DNA of 32,035 bases from Myxococcales bacterium (GTDB lineage Bacteria > Myxococcota_A > Polyangia > Polyangiales > Polyangiaceae): contig JAUVCD010000012.1 of the NCBI GenBank assembly GCA_030590865.1, positions 1-32,035 of the forward strand, given 5' to 3'. Below, piece by piece: positions 4,615 through 17,115 of the stretch. The position numbers and the translations under genes are program-made. The notes under the pieces are model-generated. The model saw nothing but the letters and a program-made list of their open reading frames with translations, ran no database searches and was not told where the DNA came from. The first letter of the stretch is position 1. The number at the start of each line of letters is the position of its first letter.

Positions 4615-5307
4615 ATGGGTCTCGCTTACGTCTTCGCTCTCATCGTGGGCCTGGGGATCCTGACGATCCAGGCCTTCCTCGGATCGAAGGACGCTGACGC
4701 GGACCACGGCGCCGATGCTGATGCGGACCACGATTTCAATGTCGATGCCGACGCGGATGCCGACTTCGATGCGGACGCCGATGCCGACTTCGATGCTGAT
4801 GCGGACGCCGACGCCCACCTGGGCGCCGACTCGGTGCATGTCCAGACAGGCCAGGCTGCTGACCAGGACATGGGCTTCGGTAGCTTCGTGGCCCTCTTTC
4901 TCTCGGTGCGGTTCTGGGTGTTTGCGTCCCTCGGCTTCGGCCTCAGCGGCACCCTGCTTCATTACGTGACGAGCGTTGGCGCGGTGGCCACGGCCGTCAC
5001 CGCCGCCACCATGGGGCTGGTGAGCGGCTTGGCCGTCGCCATGGCCTTTCGGGCTCTCAAGAAGACCGCCGGCACCCGGCCCGAGCACACCGGCACGGCG
5101 GTGGGGCACCTGGGGCGCATCATCGTGCCCTGCGGCGACCAGACCACCGGCAAAGTGCGCATCGAGCTAGGTGGCCATACCGTCGACCTGATGGCGAAAT
5201 CCACCGGGCTGCGCATCGAGCGAGGCGACACGGTGGTCATCGAAGAGGTCGAAGGCGAAGTCGCCCAGGTGTCTCGGGCGCCTGAAGAGTTGCAACGGTC
5301 GAGCTGA
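4615..5307 (+). CDS. NfeD-like membrane protein with Asp/Ala-rich linker
   Basis: 230 aa. TM1 at residues 3-23; then an acidic low-complexity region (about 25-68) built from Asp-Ala dipeptides with a regular 8-residue DADADADF unit; then two further hydrophobic segments (about 88-115 and 118-145); and a C-terminal soluble domain (about 153-222: GHLGRIIVPCGDQTTGKVRIELGG...) that resembles the OB-fold domain of NfeD/YqiJ-type proteins. NfeD proteins are typically encoded beside flotillins and act with them in membrane microdomains, and two SPFH genes follow directly here, so the context supports the assignment. A TAGGAT hexamer (4600-4605) sits 9 nt before the ATG and there is no Shine-Dalgarno, suggesting a leaderless message. 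The acidic linker is not a usual NfeD feature. Family call good; role of the linker unknown. Confidence 0.8.
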   Translation: MGLAYVFALIVGLGILTIQAFLGSKDADADHGADADADHDFNVDADADADFDADADADFDADADADAHLGADSVHVQTGQAADQDMGFGSFVALFLSVRFWVFASLGFGLSGTLLHYVTSVGAVATAVTAATMGLVSGLAVAMAFRALKKTAGTRPEHTGTAVGHLGRIIVPCGDQTTGKVRIELGGHTVDLMAKSTGLRIERGDTVVIEEVEGEVAQVSRAPEELQRSS

Positions 5308-5458
5308 CCGATCCCCGTCGCTGCCTGGTGCGAAAAGCTGCGGCCGCCCTCTACAAACTGGTGCGGAGGGGTCATAATCCGCCGCCATGACGATTCAATC
5401 CTCATTGGGGGGGCCGCTATGGGCGCTTGCGAGCGCTGCCCAGCAACGGCCCAGGGCT

Positions 5459-6862
5459 ATGTCTACGGATGTCGACAGCCTCATCACCGTGCTGGTCGCG
5501 GCCGTCGCCGTGCTGGTGGGCTTCTTCATCGTTATCGCAATTGTGAAGCGTTTTCTGTTCATTTGCGGCCCCCAGGAAATCCTGGTGTTCAGCGGCCGTT
5601 CTCACAAGCTGCCTGACGGTACGGTCAGCAATTACAAGATTCTGCACGGCGGTCGTGGCTTGCGGCTCCCCTTCCTCGAGATCGTGCGGCGCATGGACAT
5701 GCGCCTCTTTCCCGTGGAGGTGATGGTCGAGAATGCCTATTCGGCTGGCGGTATTCCGCTGACGGTGCGGGCCATCGCCAACGTCAAGCTGTCGAGCGAT
5801 GACGTGGCGGTGCGCAATGCCGTGGAGCGGTTCCTCGACTTCCACATGTCCCAAATCGCCGTGGCGGCCCAGCAGACCCTCGAAGGTGTGCTCCGCGAGG
5901 TCATCTCGCAGCTCACGCCTGAAGAGGTCAATGAGGACCGGCTCAAGTTTGCCGAGAGCCTGATGGACAACGCTCGGGACGACTTCCACAAGCTCGGTCT
6001 CGAGCTCGAGGTGCTGAAGGTACAGCACGTCTCGGACGAGCAGGAATACCTGTCCAACCTCGGTCGCGCCCGGATCGCCGGCATGCTGCGAGACGCGGAG
6101 AACGCCGAGAACTCAGCCAACCAGGCGGTGGCGGAGAACAAGGCTGCCGCCCGCGAGGCAGCCGAGACGGCCACCAAGCAGGCTGAAACCGCGGTGGTGC
6201 AATCCAAGAACATTGCCGCCGGCGAGATGGCCACCCTCGACGCCAACGCCAAGGAGGCGGAGAACCAGGCCGGCATGGCGGTCGAGACCGCCCGGATGAA
6301 GGCGGAGCAGCACCTGCAAGAGCTCCGCGCCACGCTCGAGAAGCTGCGGCTTCAGTGCGACGTGGTGCTGCCTGCCGAGGCCAACCGTAAGGCGGAGCAG
6401 CTCAAGGCCCGTGGTCAGGCTGCTCCAGCCATCGAAAACGGCAAAGCGGTCGCCGAGGCCTTGCGCCTGGTGGCCCACGAGTGGGCGGCGGCAGGCGATG
6501 CCGGCCGTGACGTCTACGTGCTGCAACAGCTGCCACGGCTGGCCGCCTCGGCGGCCAAGCGTGTCGCAGGCTCGGCGGTGGGCAGCATCAAGCTGGTGGC
6601 TGGCGACGAGTCGGCCTACACGGCGGTGCTTGCGAGTTACCCGGCCGCCGTGGTGCGGGTGCTGCAAGAGACTGGCGAGGCCCTGGGCATCGACATCGCG
6701 CGGCTGCTTGCCCCGGCCAAGCACGGGACCTCTGGTGGCGGAGGATCTGGAGGCGGTGGCGGTCAGCGCCCCAAGGCGCGTGCCCCGATGGGAAAGCCCG
6801 GCGCAACCGAGATCATCGACCCACCTGAAACGCGCCGCGGCGTGCCGGGAGGTGAAGCATGA
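5459..6862 (+). CDS. Flotillin-like SPFH-domain protein 1
   Basis: 467 aa from ATG 5459. Short N-terminus, one TM helix (about 8-30), an SPFH/Band 7 domain (about 35-200, with PLTVRAIANVKLSSDD and LRQ-like LEGVLREVISQLTPEEV motifs), a long Ala/Glu-rich coiled-coil (about 205-330) and a C-terminal region ending in a (GGGGS)-like linker and a basic/Pro tail. This is the flotillin layout: proteins that oligomerise on the inner leaflet and organise functional membrane microdomains. An alternative upstream ATG at 5387 adds 24 residues; it has a CATAAT hexamer 8 nt before it, but the extra residues use atypical codons and do not match the paralogue encoded next door, which starts right before its TM helix. 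I therefore prefer 5459. The stop overlaps the next start by 4 nt (ATGA), so the two SPFH genes are translationally coupled. Confidence 0.88.
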   Translation: MSTDVDSLITVLVAAVAVLVGFFIVIAIVKRFLFICGPQEILVFSGRSHKLPDGTVSNYKILHGGRGLRLPFLEIVRRMDMRLFPVEVMVENAYSAGGIPLTVRAIANVKLSSDDVAVRNAVERFLDFHMSQIAVAAQQTLEGVLREVISQLTPEEVNEDRLKFAESLMDNARDDFHKLGLELEVLKVQHVSDEQEYLSNLGRARIAGMLRDAENAENSANQAVAENKAAAREAAETATKQAETAVVQSKNIAAGEMATLDANAKEAENQAGMAVETARMKAEQHLQELRATLEKLRLQCDVVLPAEANRKAEQLKARGQAAPAIENGKAVAEALRLVAHEWAAAGDAGRDVYVLQQLPRLAASAAKRVAGSAVGSIKLVAGDESAYTAVLASYPAAVVRVLQETGEALGIDIARLLAPAKHGTSGGGGSGGGGGQRPKARAPMGKPGATEIIDPPETRRGVPGGEA

Positions 6863-8127
6863 TCGAGATTATCATCGTCGTGGCCATCACGATCCTCGTG
6901 GTCGTGATCTTCATCGGCTACACCCTCAAGAACCTGCTCTTCGTGGCTACGCCCAACCAGGTGTTGGTGCTGGCTGGCGGCCAGCACCGCCTCCGCAAGA
7001 AGATCGTCGGCTACCGCGCGATCCGTGGTGGCCGCGCGGTGCGCATGCCTCTCATCGAGTCGGTCCACTGGATGGATCTGTCCAACATCCCGGTGGACAT
7101 CCAGGTGAAACACGCCTTCTCCAAGGGCGGTATTCCGCTCAACGTGCAGGGCATCGGCCATGTCAAGCTGCCCGGGGCCGAGCCACGGCTGTCCAACGCC
7201 GTGGAGCGTTTCCTCGGCCGCTCCCGTGCCGAGATCGCTCAGATTGCTCGTGAGACTCTCGAGGGCAACGTCCGCGGTGTCCTGGCCCAGCTCACCCCCG
7301 AGCAGGTCAACGAGGACAAGATAGCCTTCGCCAACAAGCTGCTCGACGAGGCGGAGCACGACTTCGTGCGCATGGGGCTGGTGCTCGACACGCTCAAGAT
7401 CCAGAACGTGACCGATGACGCCAACTATCTCAACTCGATTGGCCGCATTCGAGGAGCCTCGATTCGTCGTGATGCTGCCATCGCCGAGGCCACAGCCAAG
7501 AGCGAGGCGGCGATTCAGAAGGCCGGCAACTGGGAGGCCAGCGAGCTTGCCAAGATTAAGGCCAACCTCGCCATCGCCAAGCAGGACACTAACCGGCGGG
7601 TGAAGGATGCCGTTACCGGTCGAGCGGCGAAGATCGCCGAGGCCGAGGGTGATGTCCGCGCCGAAATCGCCAAGATCGAAGAGGACATCAAGCGCCAGAC
7701 TGCGCGCGCCCCGCAGGTCGAGCGGCAGCTCGACGCCGATGTGGTCCAGCCTTGGGATGCCCAGCGCGCCAAGCTGGAGCAAGAGGCTCAAGCCGACGCG
7801 GCCTCCATCATCGAGCGTGGTCGCGCCGAGGCGGGGGCGCTCAAGAAGCTGGTCCAGGAGTATCGTGCATCGGGCGGGGCAGCCCGTGAGGTGTTGGTGC
7901 TGCAGCAGCTGATGCCCATGCTGGACACCATCGCCGGCGCCGACCGGAAGACGAAGATCAAAGAATGGACCGTGTTGGGCGGTAGCGACGATGGCGACTC
8001 GTTCGCCCACAAGGCTATCCAAACCAGCGAGCGGATCCGCGCGGCCACCGGCGTCGATCTCATCAAGACGGCTGGGCGCCTCGGCGGCGGCGGCAAGCCT
8101 CCCTTGCCGCCAGCCCAGGGCGGCTGA
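6859..8127 (+). CDS. Flotillin-like SPFH-domain protein 2
   Basis: 422 aa, a paralogue of the preceding gene, with which it shares a 4-nt ATGA overlap. TM helix at residues 2-22, SPFH domain (about 27-190; PLNVQGIGHVKL, LEGNVRGVLAQLTPEQVNEDKIAF match the equivalent segments of the first protein), coiled-coil Ala/Glu/Lys region (about 200-330), and a short Gly/Pro tail. Tandem flotillins commonly form hetero-oligomers, so the two proteins may assemble together, with the NfeD-like protein as partner. No enzymatic motif. It is followed by a strong hairpin that probably marks the end of the operon. Confidence 0.9.
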   Translation: MIEIIIVVAITILVVVIFIGYTLKNLLFVATPNQVLVLAGGQHRLRKKIVGYRAIRGGRAVRMPLIESVHWMDLSNIPVDIQVKHAFSKGGIPLNVQGIGHVKLPGAEPRLSNAVERFLGRSRAEIAQIARETLEGNVRGVLAQLTPEQVNEDKIAFANKLLDEAEHDFVRMGLVLDTLKIQNVTDDANYLNSIGRIRGASIRRDAAIAEATAKSEAAIQKAGNWEASELAKIKANLAIAKQDTNRRVKDAVTGRAAKIAEAEGDVRAEIAKIEEDIKRQTARAPQVERQLDADVVQPWDAQRAKLEQEAQADAASIIERGRAEAGALKKLVQEYRASGGAAREVLVLQQLMPMLDTIAGADRKTKIKEWTVLGGSDDGDSFAHKAIQTSERIRAATGVDLIKTAGRLGGGGKPPLPPAQGG

Positions 8128-11849: not shown

Positions 11850-14786
11850 GTGGCATGGGAGGCTGATTCCGCTTGGCCGCGGGTGATCGTCTGGCTCGCC
11901 GCATTGGTGTGCTTGCTGCAAGCGGCGTCGCTGCGGGACACTCCCTCGGGCTGGGTTCCTCAGTCCTGGGCGCCGCCACTGCCCGCGTCGGTGGGCAGCC
12001 GGGATGCCGAGCTTCAGATTGCCGTGGCCGGCCAAGACCAAGCGCCGGCCGATGGTGTGCTCGTGCGCGTCTTTGCCATCATTGGCGAGCGCGCTTATCT
12101 CGCCGGACAGGGCACGACTGGGGGAGACGGATCGCTCACCCTCGGCAAGCTGCCTACCGGTGAGGTCTGGGTCATCGCCGAGCGTGACGGATTGGCCCGG
12201 AGCAGCACCCGGCTAGTGCTCGAGCGTGGAGCCCGGCCTCTCAGCCTAGAGCTCCACGCCGCCGAGACCTTCGAAGTGGTGGTTGTCGATCCCCGTCAGC
12301 GACCGATTCGAGGTGTGCGCGTCACCCTCTACGGAGCCGATCCGCTGCCCTTCCGTGCGTTGACCGATGACCGGGGGCTTGCACGGCTGACGGGTTTGGG
12401 TCCTGCACCCTATGCCGTGGACGTGGAAGCCAGCGGCTTTGATTCCAAGTTCTTCCCCAAGCTCGCGCTAATCGACTCGCCCCTTTTCGTGAAGCTCGAG
12501 CGTCTCGGCAGCCTCGAGATCACCGTGCTGGAGCCTGGCGGTGAACCGGCCGTCGGCGCCACCGTCTTCGTCGCCGGATCGTCCCTCTGGCCAGCGCGCA
12601 GCGCCGCCACCAACAAGCTGGGCAGCGTGACCATCGCTGGCCTGGCCCGGGGGTTCTACGACGTCCGTGCCGAGCGCGGCGACTTGGTCAGCGATACCGA
12701 GACTGGGGTCATGCTCGAGCGTGGTGAAATTAAGGCGCTACGGTTGGGTCTGATCAGCGGCGTCTTCGTCAAAGTCACGGTGACCGAAGGGGAAGGCGAC
12801 GGAAGCCCAACCGTTCCGCGCGCCGATGTGGCCTTGGTCGAGGGCGGGCTCTCGTCCTTTCCTCGCTATGGCCGCACCGACGGTGCTGGCGTGGTCGTGA
12901 TCGGTCCCATCGCCGGGACCGATGCCACCCTCTCGGCACGAGCCGAGGGTTTCGTCGCTCGCAGCGCCGTGCCGCTCGAAGAAGGGGCCACCGAGGCGAC
13001 CATTGCGCTGATGCGAGGAGGCAAGTTGGTCGGAACGGTTGTCGATGAGCGGGACTATCCCATCGACGGCGTGTCGCTCGAAGTGGTGGGCGTCGACTCA
13101 GGCGGCATGCCCATCGTCGAGAGCGGCACGCTGAGCGCCTTCCGGGACGACCACTTTGCCTTTGCTCTGCCTGGCGCGATACCGCTCATTCCCGTTGGAG
13201 AGCTCGGGGTCATGCCCACCATCCCCGACGTGCCACGAGAGTTCGGTCCATTGGTGGTGCAAAGCTCGCCCGGAAGGGGCACGCCCTGGGTTTCGCGGTC
13301 TGACGGAAGCTTCACGCTAACGCCAGTGACGCCGGGACGGGTTCGGGTGGTGGCTCGCCATCCAAGCTACGTGGTGGCGATGAGTGATGCGGTTGGTCTC
13401 GAGTCAGGGGGCAGCCACGAGCTCCGCATCGTGATGCACCCCGGTGGGATCTTGGAGGGCCGGGTGCTCGAACAGGATCGTAGCCCGGTGTCCGGTGCCC
13501 GCGTCCAGGTCGTGTCTCAGGCAGGCTCGGTGGAGCGGGTCACCTATGCCGCCGACGACGGCCGCTTCGCCTTTGCGGCGCTGCCTGCCGAGGTGATCCT
13601 CTCGGTGGCCCGGCCCGATGCGCCGGAGCACATCGTCGAGCGCCTGATCATCGACGTGCCACCAGATGAGCGGCGGGAGGTCGAGATCCTTCTTCCCAAG
13701 AAGCGTGACGCGGTAGCCCTGCGGGTCGTCGACGATCGAGGCTACCCCATCGATCGGGTGGAGGTTCACGCCAGCTCTCTCGCGCCACGGGAGCCACTGA
13801 TCAAGACCTTGTTCACCGACGATCAGGGTGAAGCCAGCCTGCCCGGGGCCAGGGGATTACCCCTCCGGTTCGTCTTGCTGAGGCGTCATCGGGCTCCTGG
13901 AGTCTTTGAGATCGATCCAGCTCCTGCCCAGTTGGATCTACCGATGACGCCAGCGCTCAGCGCGGTCGGGCGGGTCGAGTCGCGGCACGGAGCCTTGGCC
14001 GGCGCCAAGCTCGTCTTACTCACGCCGACGGGCATGCGGCGCACCCGGACCGACGACCATGGCGCGTTCCGTTTCGAGGAGCTTGCACCGACCTCAGCGC
14101 GACTATTGGTGACGGCCAAGGGCTACGTCCCCGATGAGCGGGACGTGATGATCGAAGGGGACGACCGTCGCCCAGTCGATCTGGGGTCCATCGAGCTCAG
14201 CGCAGGGGGGAGTGCTCGCGGAGTCGTCGTCGATGAAGCCGGCGATCCCGTCGTGGGCGCCCGGGTCGCTCCTGGTCGAGTGCCCACCTATCTGCCCCTC
14301 GGCCCGCTGCCGATTGGGGTGGCGGCGACCGACGCTCAGGGCCGCTTTGCGCTGTCTAATCTGACGCCTGGCAAGACGGAGATCGAGGCCTATAAGGTCG
14401 GTTTCGGCCGTGAGGCTGTCCTCGATGTGGCGATCCGTGCAGGCCAGACGACCGAGGATGTTCGAATCGAGCTACGCCAAGATCTCGACGTGGACGGGAC
14501 CGGGGTCAACGCCCGCGCCAGTCTCGCCGTCACCCTCAGCGAGAGCCCTCGGGGCAAGCAGCGGGCGGTGATCTTCGAGCATGTTCCGTTGGGCGGCGAG
14601 GCGCAGCGGGCCGGCATCCTCGCCGGTGATCGCTTCGTCAGCTACAACGGCATGTCGATTCGCTCGCTCGAGCACGCCCGCCGGTGGCTGAACGGGCCGC
14701 TGAGCGAGGACTTCGTGGTCGAGCTGGAACGAGGCGACGAGCTACGCTGGCGGGTCCGGGTCCGGCGGGAGCGCGTCCGGCGTTGA
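11850..14786 (+). CDS. Large carboxypeptidase-regulatory-like domain protein with C-terminal PDZ domain
   Basis: 978 aa, GTG start 12 nt after the previous stop. An N-terminal hydrophobic helix (about 10-25, VIVWLAALVCLLQAASL) serves as an uncleaved anchor or signal peptide. Most of the protein is a string of beta-sandwich repeats of the CarboxypepD_reg/transthyretin-like type, recognisable by recurring G-x-V-x-D-x-x-G-x-P-V-x-G-A-x-V and TDxxGxxxLxxLxPG patterns (e.g. near 395, 545, 790). The last 90 residues (VTLSESPRGKQRAVIFEHVPLGGEAQRAGILAGDRFVSYNG...) are PDZ-like, with AGILAGDRF the usual carboxylate-loop region. Predicted location is periplasm or cell surface. No protease catalytic site is visible, so an adhesive or scaffold role is more likely than a peptidase. 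Confidence 0.85.
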   Translation: MAWEADSAWPRVIVWLAALVCLLQAASLRDTPSGWVPQSWAPPLPASVGSRDAELQIAVAGQDQAPADGVLVRVFAIIGERAYLAGQGTTGGDGSLTLGKLPTGEVWVIAERDGLARSSTRLVLERGARPLSLELHAAETFEVVVVDPRQRPIRGVRVTLYGADPLPFRALTDDRGLARLTGLGPAPYAVDVEASGFDSKFFPKLALIDSPLFVKLERLGSLEITVLEPGGEPAVGATVFVAGSSLWPARSAATNKLGSVTIAGLARGFYDVRAERGDLVSDTETGVMLERGEIKALRLGLISGVFVKVTVTEGEGDGSPTVPRADVALVEGGLSSFPRYGRTDGAGVVVIGPIAGTDATLSARAEGFVARSAVPLEEGATEATIALMRGGKLVGTVVDERDYPIDGVSLEVVGVDSGGMPIVESGTLSAFRDDHFAFALPGAIPLIPVGELGVMPTIPDVPREFGPLVVQSSPGRGTPWVSRSDGSFTLTPVTPGRVRVVARHPSYVVAMSDAVGLESGGSHELRIVMHPGGILEGRVLEQDRSPVSGARVQVVSQAGSVERVTYAADDGRFAFAALPAEVILSVARPDAPEHIVERLIIDVPPDERREVEILLPKKRDAVALRVVDDRGYPIDRVEVHASSLAPREPLIKTLFTDDQGEASLPGARGLPLRFVLLRRHRAPGVFEIDPAPAQLDLPMTPALSAVGRVESRHGALAGAKLVLLTPTGMRRTRTDDHGAFRFEELAPTSARLLVTAKGYVPDERDVMIEGDDRRPVDLGSIELSAGGSARGVVVDEAGDPVVGARVAPGRVPTYLPLGPLPIGVAATDAQGRFALSNLTPGKTEIEAYKVGFGREAVLDVAIRAGQTTEDVRIELRQDLDVDGTGVNARASLAVTLSESPRGKQRAVIFEHVPLGGEAQRAGILAGDRFVSYNGMSIRSLEHARRWLNGPLSEDFVVELERGDELRWRVRVRRERVRR

Positions 14787-15739: not shown

Positions 15740-15756
15740 TTGGCACGGACTGTGCT
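15740..15756 (+). promoter_or_regulatory. Sigma-54-type -24/-12 promoter candidate
   Basis: TTGGCACGGACTGTGCT matches the sigma-54 consensus YTGGCACGrNNNTTGCW at every defined position except one (G for the first T of TTGC), with the invariant GG and GC exactly 10 nt apart. Predicted transcription start is about 15767, only 8 nt before the ATG at 15775, which is short but not impossible. Sigma-54 promoters need an enhancer-binding activator, and these regulators are abundant in myxobacteria. It lies directly ahead of the four-gene lipoprotein array. Confidence 0.5.
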
Positions 15757-15774
15757 ACATTGAGATCTGACCTA

Positions 15775-16116
15775 ATGGCTGCTGATCGACGAGCTCTGTT
15801 TGTTGTCGCCCTTTTCATGGGCACCGTCTTGGGTAATGGCTGTGGGTTCAACCCCCAGCCAGAGCCACCAGGCGCTGATGAGGAGACCGGCTCCTCGACT
15901 TCCGGGGCCGGTGGTTACGCTAGCTCCAGCTCTGGCACTGGCGCGGACAACGCCGGTGGCTCCACCACCGATTTAGACGCAGGCAGCGGCCTGGGCGGAG
16001 ATGGTGGTCTGGGTGGAGACGGCGGGTTTGGCGGCCTAGGCGGAGCAGGTGGACTCGGCGGAGCCGGCGGGCTCGGCGGTGTCGGAGGCTTCGGTGGCGC
16101 TGGAGGGGGAAACTAA
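15775..16116 (+). CDS. Small Gly-rich lipoprotein 1 of the NPQPEPPG array
   Basis: 113 aa from ATG 15775 (an in-frame TTG at 15760 would add five residues). A hydrophobic signal segment ends at Cys23 (VLGNGC), followed immediately by GFNPQPEPPG, then a Ser/Thr/Gly/Asp spacer (about 34-68) and a C-terminal run of Gly-Gly-X triplets (X = Leu, Asp, Phe, Ala, Val) to the end. No globular domain is left after the signal peptide. The lipobox is poorer than in the second and fourth members. The stop TAA overlaps the next ATG by 1 nt (TAATG), and GGAGGGGG, encoding the last Gly residues, acts as the Shine-Dalgarno of the next gene. Function unknown; probable surface or envelope protein. Confidence 0.75.
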   Translation: MAADRRALFVVALFMGTVLGNGCGFNPQPEPPGADEETGSSTSGAGGYASSSSGTGADNAGGSTTDLDAGSGLGGDGGLGGDGGFGGLGGAGGLGGAGGLGGVGGFGGAGGGN

Positions 16117-16436
16117 TGCGACGGTTGCTGCGAGCTCCTCTGGTGATGGTTGTATGGGTGGTTCTGGCTGCCTGCGGATTCAACCCGCAGCCCGAGCCGC
16201 CGGGCAACGAGGGGGGCTTCGAAAACACGTCATCCAGCGGTTCGGGAGTAGGCGGCAGCAGCAGCGGAACCTTGCTCGGTGGTGCTGGCGGCATGAGCAG
16301 TGGTGATGGTGGAGTTCTACCAGGTGGTGGCGCTGGCGGCATTGGTGGCTCAGCAGGCGATGGCGGAGTTGGCGGCATCGGCGGTGCAGGTGGTGTAGGC
16401 GGGATTGGCGGCAGCGGCGGCCAAGGTGGAACATGA
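16116..16436 (+). CDS. Small Gly-rich lipoprotein 2 of the NPQPEPPG array
   Basis: 106 aa. Basic N-terminus (MRRLLR), hydrophobic core, canonical lipobox L-A-A-C (Cys20), then GFNPQPEPPG as in the first member. The mature protein is a Ser/Gly spacer followed by a GGXGG tail (GGVGGIGGAGGVGGIGGSGG). It starts 1 nt inside the stop of gene 1 with GGAGG (16102-16106) at suitable spacing, and overlaps gene 3 by 4 nt (ATGA). This is the clearest lipoprotein of the four and the best guide to the family's layout: signal peptide, lipid-Cys, invariant nonapeptide, polar spacer, glycine tail. Confidence 0.8.
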   Translation: MRRLLRAPLVMVVWVVLAACGFNPQPEPPGNEGGFENTSSSGSGVGGSSSGTLLGGAGGMSSGDGGVLPGGGAGGIGGSAGDGGVGGIGGAGGVGGIGGSGGQGGT

Positions 16437-16768
16437 AGAACCGAGCCCCTTTGACAGTGTTTTCGTTGTGCGCCGTTCTGGTGTTGCTGGTGGATTGCAT
16501 CTTCAATCCCCAGCCAGAACCTCCTGGTGAAACCACCTCGGATTCTGGCGGCAGTGGCGCTCAGACAGGCTCGTCCTCCTCTTCCGGCACGACCTCGAGC
16601 GGAACGGGTGGTCTCAGTGGGGGCGGCGGCTTCGGTGGCAGCGTGAACGCTGGCGGCGGCGGTGACCAAGCTGGCGGAGCTGGTGGTGATGGCGGAGCTG
16701 GTGGTGACGGCGGCGTCGGCGGCGTCGGTGGCGCACTCGGTGGCGGTGGAGCTGGCGGCGGAGGTTGA
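16433..16768 (+). CDS. Small Gly-rich lipoprotein 3 of the NPQPEPPG array
   Basis: 111 aa. Signal peptide MKNRAPLTVFSLCAVLVLLVDC with Cys22; Asp at the -1 position is unusual for a lipobox, so lipidation is less certain. The sequence IFNPQPEPPG follows the Cys directly, and its codons differ silently from the other copies. A Ser/Thr spacer and a tail of GGDGGAGGDGGVGGVGG type follow. The ATG overlaps the stop of gene 2 (ATGA), with AAGGTGG (16423-16429) as a close Shine-Dalgarno. Its own last Gly codons provide GGAGG for gene 4. Function unknown. Confidence 0.76.
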   Translation: MKNRAPLTVFSLCAVLVLLVDCIFNPQPEPPGETTSDSGGSGAQTGSSSSSGTTSSGTGGLSGGGGFGGSVNAGGGGDQAGGAGGDGGAGGDGGVGGVGGALGGGGAGGGG

Positions 16769-16770
16769 AC

Positions 16771-17115
16771 GTGACGCTTGGTGGCCTGATGAGAGTTGTT
16801 GCGCCCGTCGCTGCTTTGGTTCTCGTGGTGGGCTGCGTGTTCAACCCCCAACCTGAGCCGCCAGGTGCGCAGTCCGCGTCGTCGAGTGGCGATGGTGGCG
16901 GTGGCGGTCTCGGCTCGACCTCGACCTCGACCTCGACGTCAAGCAGTTCGACCTCGACCTCTAGCGGCGAAGGAGGCGGCGGCGCCTTCAGTTATGATGG
17001 TGGCGGTGGCGCGGGCGGAGAGGCTGGCGCAGGCGGTCAAGGCGGTGCAGGAGGCCTAGGCGGCGCAGGTGGGCAGGGCGGCTCGTTCGGCGGTGGCGGC
17101 ACCGGCGGAAGCTAA
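16771..17115 (+). CDS. Small Gly-rich lipoprotein 4 of the NPQPEPPG array
   Basis: 114 aa from GTG 16771, chosen because GGAGG (16760-16764) lies 6 nt upstream. TTG 16765 and ATG 16789 are in-frame alternatives; the last leaves the signal peptide intact. Lipobox V-V-G-C, then VFNPQPEPPG, a Ser/Thr block encoded by hexanucleotide repeats, and a GGAGG tail. It is the last gene of the array: its TAA stop (17113-17115) shares bases with the stop of the convergent minus-strand gene (17112-17114). Function unknown; same architecture as its three neighbours. Confidence 0.77.
   Translation: MTLGGLMRVVAPVAALVLVVGCVFNPQPEPPGAQSASSSGDGGGGGLGSTSTSTSTSSSSTSTSSGEGGGGAFSYDGGGGAGGEAGAGGQGGAGGLGGAGGQGGSFGGGGTGGS
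16915..16959 (+). repeat. TCGACC hexanucleotide microsatellite inside lipoprotein 4
   Basis: Three perfect TCGACC units (16915-16932), a one-base variant TCGACG (16933-16938), then after 9 nt two more TCGACC units (16948-16959). Each unit encodes Ser-Thr. The repeat is in frame, so gain or loss of units would change spacer length without frameshift. Confidence 0.75.

Follow-up and report, generated by a model that had tools for sequence, protein, structure and literature searches.

The window, as we call the whole 32,035-nucleotide stretch of DNA analysed here, comes from a Myxococcales bacterium of the family Polyangiaceae and carries an array of four small lipoprotein genes behind a putative sigma-54 promoter, laid out as follows.

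15740-15756, + strand: putative sigma-54 promoter TTGGCACG-GACT-GTGCT, 12/13 consensus positions, 20 bp before the ATG at 15775
15775-16116, + strand: NPQP lipoprotein gene 1, 113 aa; Cys codon 15841-15843; CGFNPQPEPPG; GGX tail
15847-15873, + strand: conserved block FNPQPEPPG, copy 1
16116-16436, + strand: NPQP lipoprotein gene 2, 106 aa; Cys codon 16173-16175; CGFNPQPEPPG; GGX tail
16179-16205, + strand: conserved block FNPQPEPPG, copy 2
16433-16768, + strand: NPQP lipoprotein gene 3, 111 aa; Cys codon 16496-16498; CIFNPQPEPPG; GGX tail
16502-16528, + strand: conserved block FNPQPEPPG, copy 3
16771-17115, + strand: NPQP lipoprotein gene 4, 114 aa; Cys codon 16834-16836; CVFNPQPEPPG; GGX tail
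16840-16866, + strand: conserved block FNPQPEPPG, copy 4

In each protein, the signal peptide leads up to the lipobox Cys, after which come a single variable residue (G, G, I and V, respectively), FNPQPEPPG, a polar spacer and a Gly-Gly-X tail; in gene 4, the spacer ahead of the tail is rich in Ser and Thr. The lipoboxes of copies 1-4 end in LGNGC, VLAAC, LLVDC and VVGC and follow the bacterial lipoprotein pattern of a hydrophobic core and [GAS]C, the Asp at -1 of copy 3 being unusual. Both the open reading frames and the motif agree with the sequence-only reading of this DNA, which had described four consecutive, coupled lipoprotein genes of 106-114 aa. The ATG of gene 2 overlaps the stop codon of gene 1, and a Shine-Dalgarno-like GGAGGGGG lies inside the tail codons of gene 1. 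Genes 2 and 3 are joined by an ATGA overlap, and gene 4 starts with the GTG at 16771, 6 nt downstream of GGAGG, to which the listed TTG at 16765 would have no spacing. For gene 1, an alternative TTG start at 15760 is possible, but it lies upstream of the inferred transcription start. At 16100-16116 and 16755-16771, terminal Gly codons double as the Shine-Dalgarno sequence of the next gene (genes 2 and 4), which links the composition of the tails to the coupling of the operon.

The conservation of the block resides in the peptide. Over its nine codons, the six pairwise comparisons between copies give 31 silent differences (over 38 silent sites; pS 0.82) and 0 replacement differences (pN 0), while the 12-codon windows flanking it give pN values of 0.54 and 0.66. 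Silent differences occur at eight of the nine block codons, exactly as had been counted in the sequence-only reading, which had argued for purifying selection on the peptide instead of recent duplication or gene conversion and had proposed a comparison of silent and replacement changes. Silent saturation, the lack of any replacement and conservation over dozens of genera strongly support such selection. Identical peptides in tandem copies might also suggest a nucleotide-level element or recent gene conversion, but the third positions vary freely, and in 45 adjacent pairs of copies the silent third positions of the block agree at background level; this silent variation already refutes the explanation, to which we assign next to no probability. 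Chance origin was likewise rejected: in the 9.5 Mb genome of the window, N-P-Q-P-x-P-P occurs only at the four array sites, and a reversed control pattern gives 0 sites.

How far does the motif extend beyond this genome? The search for a lipobox followed by the NPQP block, also proposed beforehand, places it well outside its own genome: C-x-[LFI]-NPQP-x-x-P (Pro at +10) follows a lipobox in 83 of the 108 genomes of the family Polyangiaceae, mostly in tandem. Elsewhere in the class, 3 of 210 other genomes have a match, 2 of them credible lipoproteins. With the pattern C-x-h-NPQP, matches were found in 91 of the 108 Polyangiaceae genomes, some of them false, and the stricter C-x-h-NPQPEPP occurs in 0 genomes outside Polyangiaceae among 379 of the phylum. 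Named carriers, among them Sorangium cellulosum and Minicystis rosea, are mostly Polyangiaceae or Myxococcota MAGs. Within a genome, the motif is restricted to about 2-6 proteins. Some matches did not stand up to inspection. Those to SCLMNPQPFSSLNH come from a recurrent frame that lacks a signal peptide, and we removed them from the set; the frame is near-identical in L099, L110, L134, L137, L139, L144, L150, L151, L155, L158, L160, L165, L183 and L187, and is probably antisense to a conserved gene, inflating pattern counts. A convincing signal peptide is also missing from matches labelled Streptomyces, Chthoniobacter and Acidilobaceae. A record labelled Patescibacteria and probably mis-binned (L077, 1605-3836, - strand) encodes a believable 744-residue lipoprotein that starts CGFNPQPEPPAENQ and contains seven MopE metal-binding repeats.

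Examination of 100 regions yielded 124 proteins from 62 genomes, all 124 with the lipobox Cys and 119 with A, G or S at -1. Their consensus is C-x-[LFI]-N-P-Q-P-[ELDIF]-[PVLI]-P, in which the invariance of N-P-Q-P and of the final Pro is partly conditioned by the search pattern and filter. Since these residues were built in by the search, we used syntenic loci as an independent test and inspected the lipoproteins beside the syntenic cNMP-binding gene in family genomes without the exact motif. There we found CVIQPQPLPP, CIIQPQPLPP, CVIDPLNPQPLPP, CSGELNPQPLPP and CFLNPFPELP, and further CALNPQSEPP, CVFDPQPDPP, CFDPQPDPP, CALSPIPELP and CNLNPVPEDP; in genome G349, the spacing between motif and Cys is shifted by 2-3 residues. 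These variants indicate that the motif is nearly, not absolutely, fixed and that its distance from the Cys can change. The NPQP loci themselves contain a single further near-variant, CGLNPRPEDP.

A looser form, C-x-h-[NST]-P-x-P-x-P-P, is carried by a second lipoprotein family of Polyangiales, which we found via two matches outside Polyangiaceae. Its members share a region of about 200 residues in which no Pfam family rises above cut-off; unlike the array proteins, they are folded and encoded by single genes. They occur in several families of the order (L189, L190, L246-L254), including in Sorangium and Minicystis, and the genome of the window has one of its own, L251 (L282), cut by the contig end. 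Their mature N termini read CGINPQPSPPN, CAINPQPTPPN, CGVSPQPSPPN, CGVNPIPEPPS, CVVSPQPSPPV, CGVSPQPEPPS, CVGTPQPDPPN and CGISPKPQPPI, so that the looser pattern is a broader post-Cys motif of Polyangiales. Several loci share one arrangement: the gene of this globular family points away from a very large kinase gene on one side, and next to it on the other comes a gene for a Cys-rich lipoprotein that bears a YTK(D/E)EA motif. In six genomes, the wide pattern A/G-C-x-h-x-P-x-P-x-P-P gives just 2-7 matches each, of which several are due to chance, and a general export tag on many lipoproteins was rejected for this reason.

Around the motif, the proteins change quickly. In the 45 adjacent pairs, identity is 21-23% in the signal peptide and from +11 to +30, compared with 98% at +3 and 89% at +8/+9. 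Taking one pair per genus (25 genera), the two copies agree at +8/+9 in 96% of cases versus 24% for shuffled partners, and at +3 in 100% versus 48%; signal peptides are not clearly above background (p = 0.08). Such agreement is expected if the copies of a genome answer to one shared partner, and we take it as suggestive only, not as proof of co-evolution with a partner, since slow change combined with lineage-specific duplication yields the same pattern.

The tails are more diverse than the window alone would indicate. Of the 103 short members, 19 have a tail with more than 40% Gly, and another 44 have an acidic one with more than 20% Asp+Glu; Lys+Arg is at or below 2% in 73 of the 103. In some genomes, proteins with DUF4397, with Lcl_C or with Cys-rich repeats start with the NPQP N terminus. 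With acidic tails and unrelated domains in other members, Gly-Gly-X is one tail among several, and the Gly-Gly-X matrix envisaged in the sequence-only reading is not a general feature of the family but a lineage-specific one. Its other statement on structure, that there is no globular domain and no recognisable named family, holds: no Pfam-A or NCBIfam family reaches its cut-off (best New_glue with 16.3 bits versus 31, and MIGRI with 13.7 versus 28), a search of solved structures found no sequence relative, and the AlphaFold model shows the signal-peptide helix only, with pLDDT mostly below 50 in the C-terminal half. The mature chain and its tails are thus predicted to be disordered.

A feature that had gone unmentioned in the sequence-only reading is a conserved promoter-like site of the sigma-54 (-24/-12) type ahead of the arrays. 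The sigma-54 consensus is TGGCACG-N4-TTGC(T/A), and the M. xanthus pilA promoter has GTGCT as its -12 element (PMC9765219). In the window, the -24 GG lies at 15742-15743 and the -12 GC at 15754-15755, giving the GG and GC 12 bp apart within the consensus that are expected of a sigma-54 promoter. Of the 38 tandem arrays, 29 have a site matching at least 10/13 positions upstream of their first gene; among the 38 single-match loci, 13 do. The background is 3.3/76 in dinucleotide shuffles and 12/501 for other genes of the same loci. In an independent set, seven of the eight variant arrays have a sigma-54-type site.

In most genera, the arrays adjoin genes for a stand-alone cNMP-binding protein and a GNAT acetyltransferase. 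In the window, the neighbours are a YggS-like protein (Ala_racemase_N) and two proteins that, from their sequence, resemble zinc-ribbon plus beta-propeller proteins. No dedicated export machinery was found among the conserved neighbours of the arrays, and a RiPP-like precursor was rejected because these neighbours include no modifying enzymes. Upstream of the array, positions 11850-14786 (+ strand) encode a protein of 978 residues in which many CarboxypepD_reg domains are combined with a PDZ domain at the C terminus. At 4615-8124 (+ strand), 7.6 kb upstream of the array, lie a gene for an Asp/Ala-rich membrane protein and two Band_7/SPFH (flotillin-like) genes. In three genomes of another genus (L115, L116, L119), this set of three genes is closely followed on the same strand by a Cys-rich, NPQPEVP-tagged lipoprotein.

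We consider it somewhat probable that the array is a sigma-54-controlled, coupled operon of disordered envelope lipoproteins, in which the membrane-proximal motif serves as a sorting or docking tag for a small clientele. Activation by sigma-54 would lead to expression of the translationally coupled operon of four small lipoproteins; the signal peptide would export each protein, and the lipobox Cys would become lipidated. The proteins would then be carried to the outer membrane, a destination suggested by the absence of Lys at +2 (0/123), the residue that marks inner-membrane retention in M. xanthus (PMC3222651). There, possibly at the cell surface, the disordered mature chain would hold [LFI]-N-P-Q-P-x-x-P next to the membrane, followed by a low-complexity spacer and the tail. 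Function would centre on the peptide, a short linear motif that one partner in the envelope recognises, be it a sorting step or a docking protein. The tail would be a bulk hydrophilic, Lys/Arg-poor chain, Gly-rich, Asp/Ala-rich or replaced by a domain, and may act as a brush.

The strongest competitor is common descent: the N terminus would simply change slowly, and tandem copies and fusions would be lineage-specific duplications carrying no transferable tag. The syntenic locus with cNMP-binding and GNAT genes throughout the family speaks for it, as does the orthology of copies by position, which holds within genera (0.52 versus 0.20) and not between them. However, descent alone leaves unexplained how about ten residues remained fixed in proteins whose signal peptides, spacers and tails have become randomised, and the motif recurs in the separate globular family. 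We regard this account as a real possibility, if short of probable; since descent and selection are compatible, it limits the claim of a tag and does not replace it.

The tag itself had been anticipated by the sequence-only reading, which compared the block to the lipoprotein export signal (LES) of Bacteroidota. The idea of a tag gains support, because the identical N terminus is joined to unrelated tails and domains; the likeness to the LES is restricted to position. The LES, K-(D/E)2 or Q-A-(D/E)2, is charged, position-critical and widely used, and moves proteins to the surface (PMC5080379). Like it, the NPQP motif is short, directly follows the lipidated Cys and is portable between unrelated lipoproteins; unlike it, the motif is uncharged to weakly acidic, Pro-rich, tolerant of shifts and found on few proteins, with neither K at +2/+3 nor a pair of acidic residues within +3 to +6. 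We put forward tentatively, and with considerable doubt, that C-x-[LFI]-NPQP-x-x-P could be a new signal of Polyangiales for sorting or surface display, one that has recognition machinery of its own and is borne by sigma-54-induced disordered coat lipoproteins. MYXO-CTERM, the myxosortase tag (PMC11980579), is likewise a lineage-specific sorting tag of Myxococcota with an invariant, predicted lipidated Cys. In contrast to the NPQP motif, it is C-terminal, comprises a transmembrane helix and an Arg cluster, and has dozens of clients per genome; the C termini of NPQP proteins are GGX or Asp/Ala-rich and have no helix.

Could the block go further and act as a true surface-flipping export signal, the Polyangiales equivalent of the LES, which redirects lipoproteins that would otherwise face the periplasm to the surface of the cell? 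It adjoins the lipid-bearing Cys, is modular, and heads tails that look extracellular, and besides the missing +2 Lys there is a precedent in the same phylum, where N-terminal residues sort the lipoproteins of M. xanthus and Ala at +7 is required for export of FibA to the matrix (PMC3222651). In both cases, the signal would lie in the first post-Cys residues, a single residue in M. xanthus versus an eight-residue motif here. However, +7 is Pro and not Ala (123/124, a count conditioned by the search), and the variant arrays also lack Ala at +7. The spacing shift in G349 is at odds with the position-critical LES, the genes adjoin no dedicated machinery, and the small clientele makes a general export signal unlikely. 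We therefore judge surface flipping to be unlikely.

Still less credible to us, and rather improbable, is an inert, protease-resistant and rigid Pro spacer that has no reader and holds the tail off the membrane or aids extraction by LolCDE. The motif is indeed Pro-rich, and disordered post-Cys linkers matter for Lol transport, in which the linker is contacted by LolE even though substrates share no sequence identity there (PMC12846838). By the same token, ordinary Lol transport leaves a fixed sequence unexplained: a spacer would not need a near-fixed Asn and Gln and a hydrophobic +3 over dozens of genera, and few other lipoproteins of the same genomes carry the motif.

Finally, we would like to place the tagged lipoproteins into the context of myxobacterial biology. 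They form an undescribed family, absent from Pfam and NCBIfam, that keeps about ten residues and leaves nearly everything else free; a literature search with the peptide strings NPQPEPP and NPQPLPP found no paper. So far, a single residue for matrix export and another for retention are on record in myxobacteria (PMC3222651), and the family offers a clean system for the role of the first post-Cys residues in these organisms. The sigma-54-type site provides a handle on the timing of lipoprotein production, and with Sorangium cellulosum and Minicystis rosea, culturable carriers of the motif are at hand.
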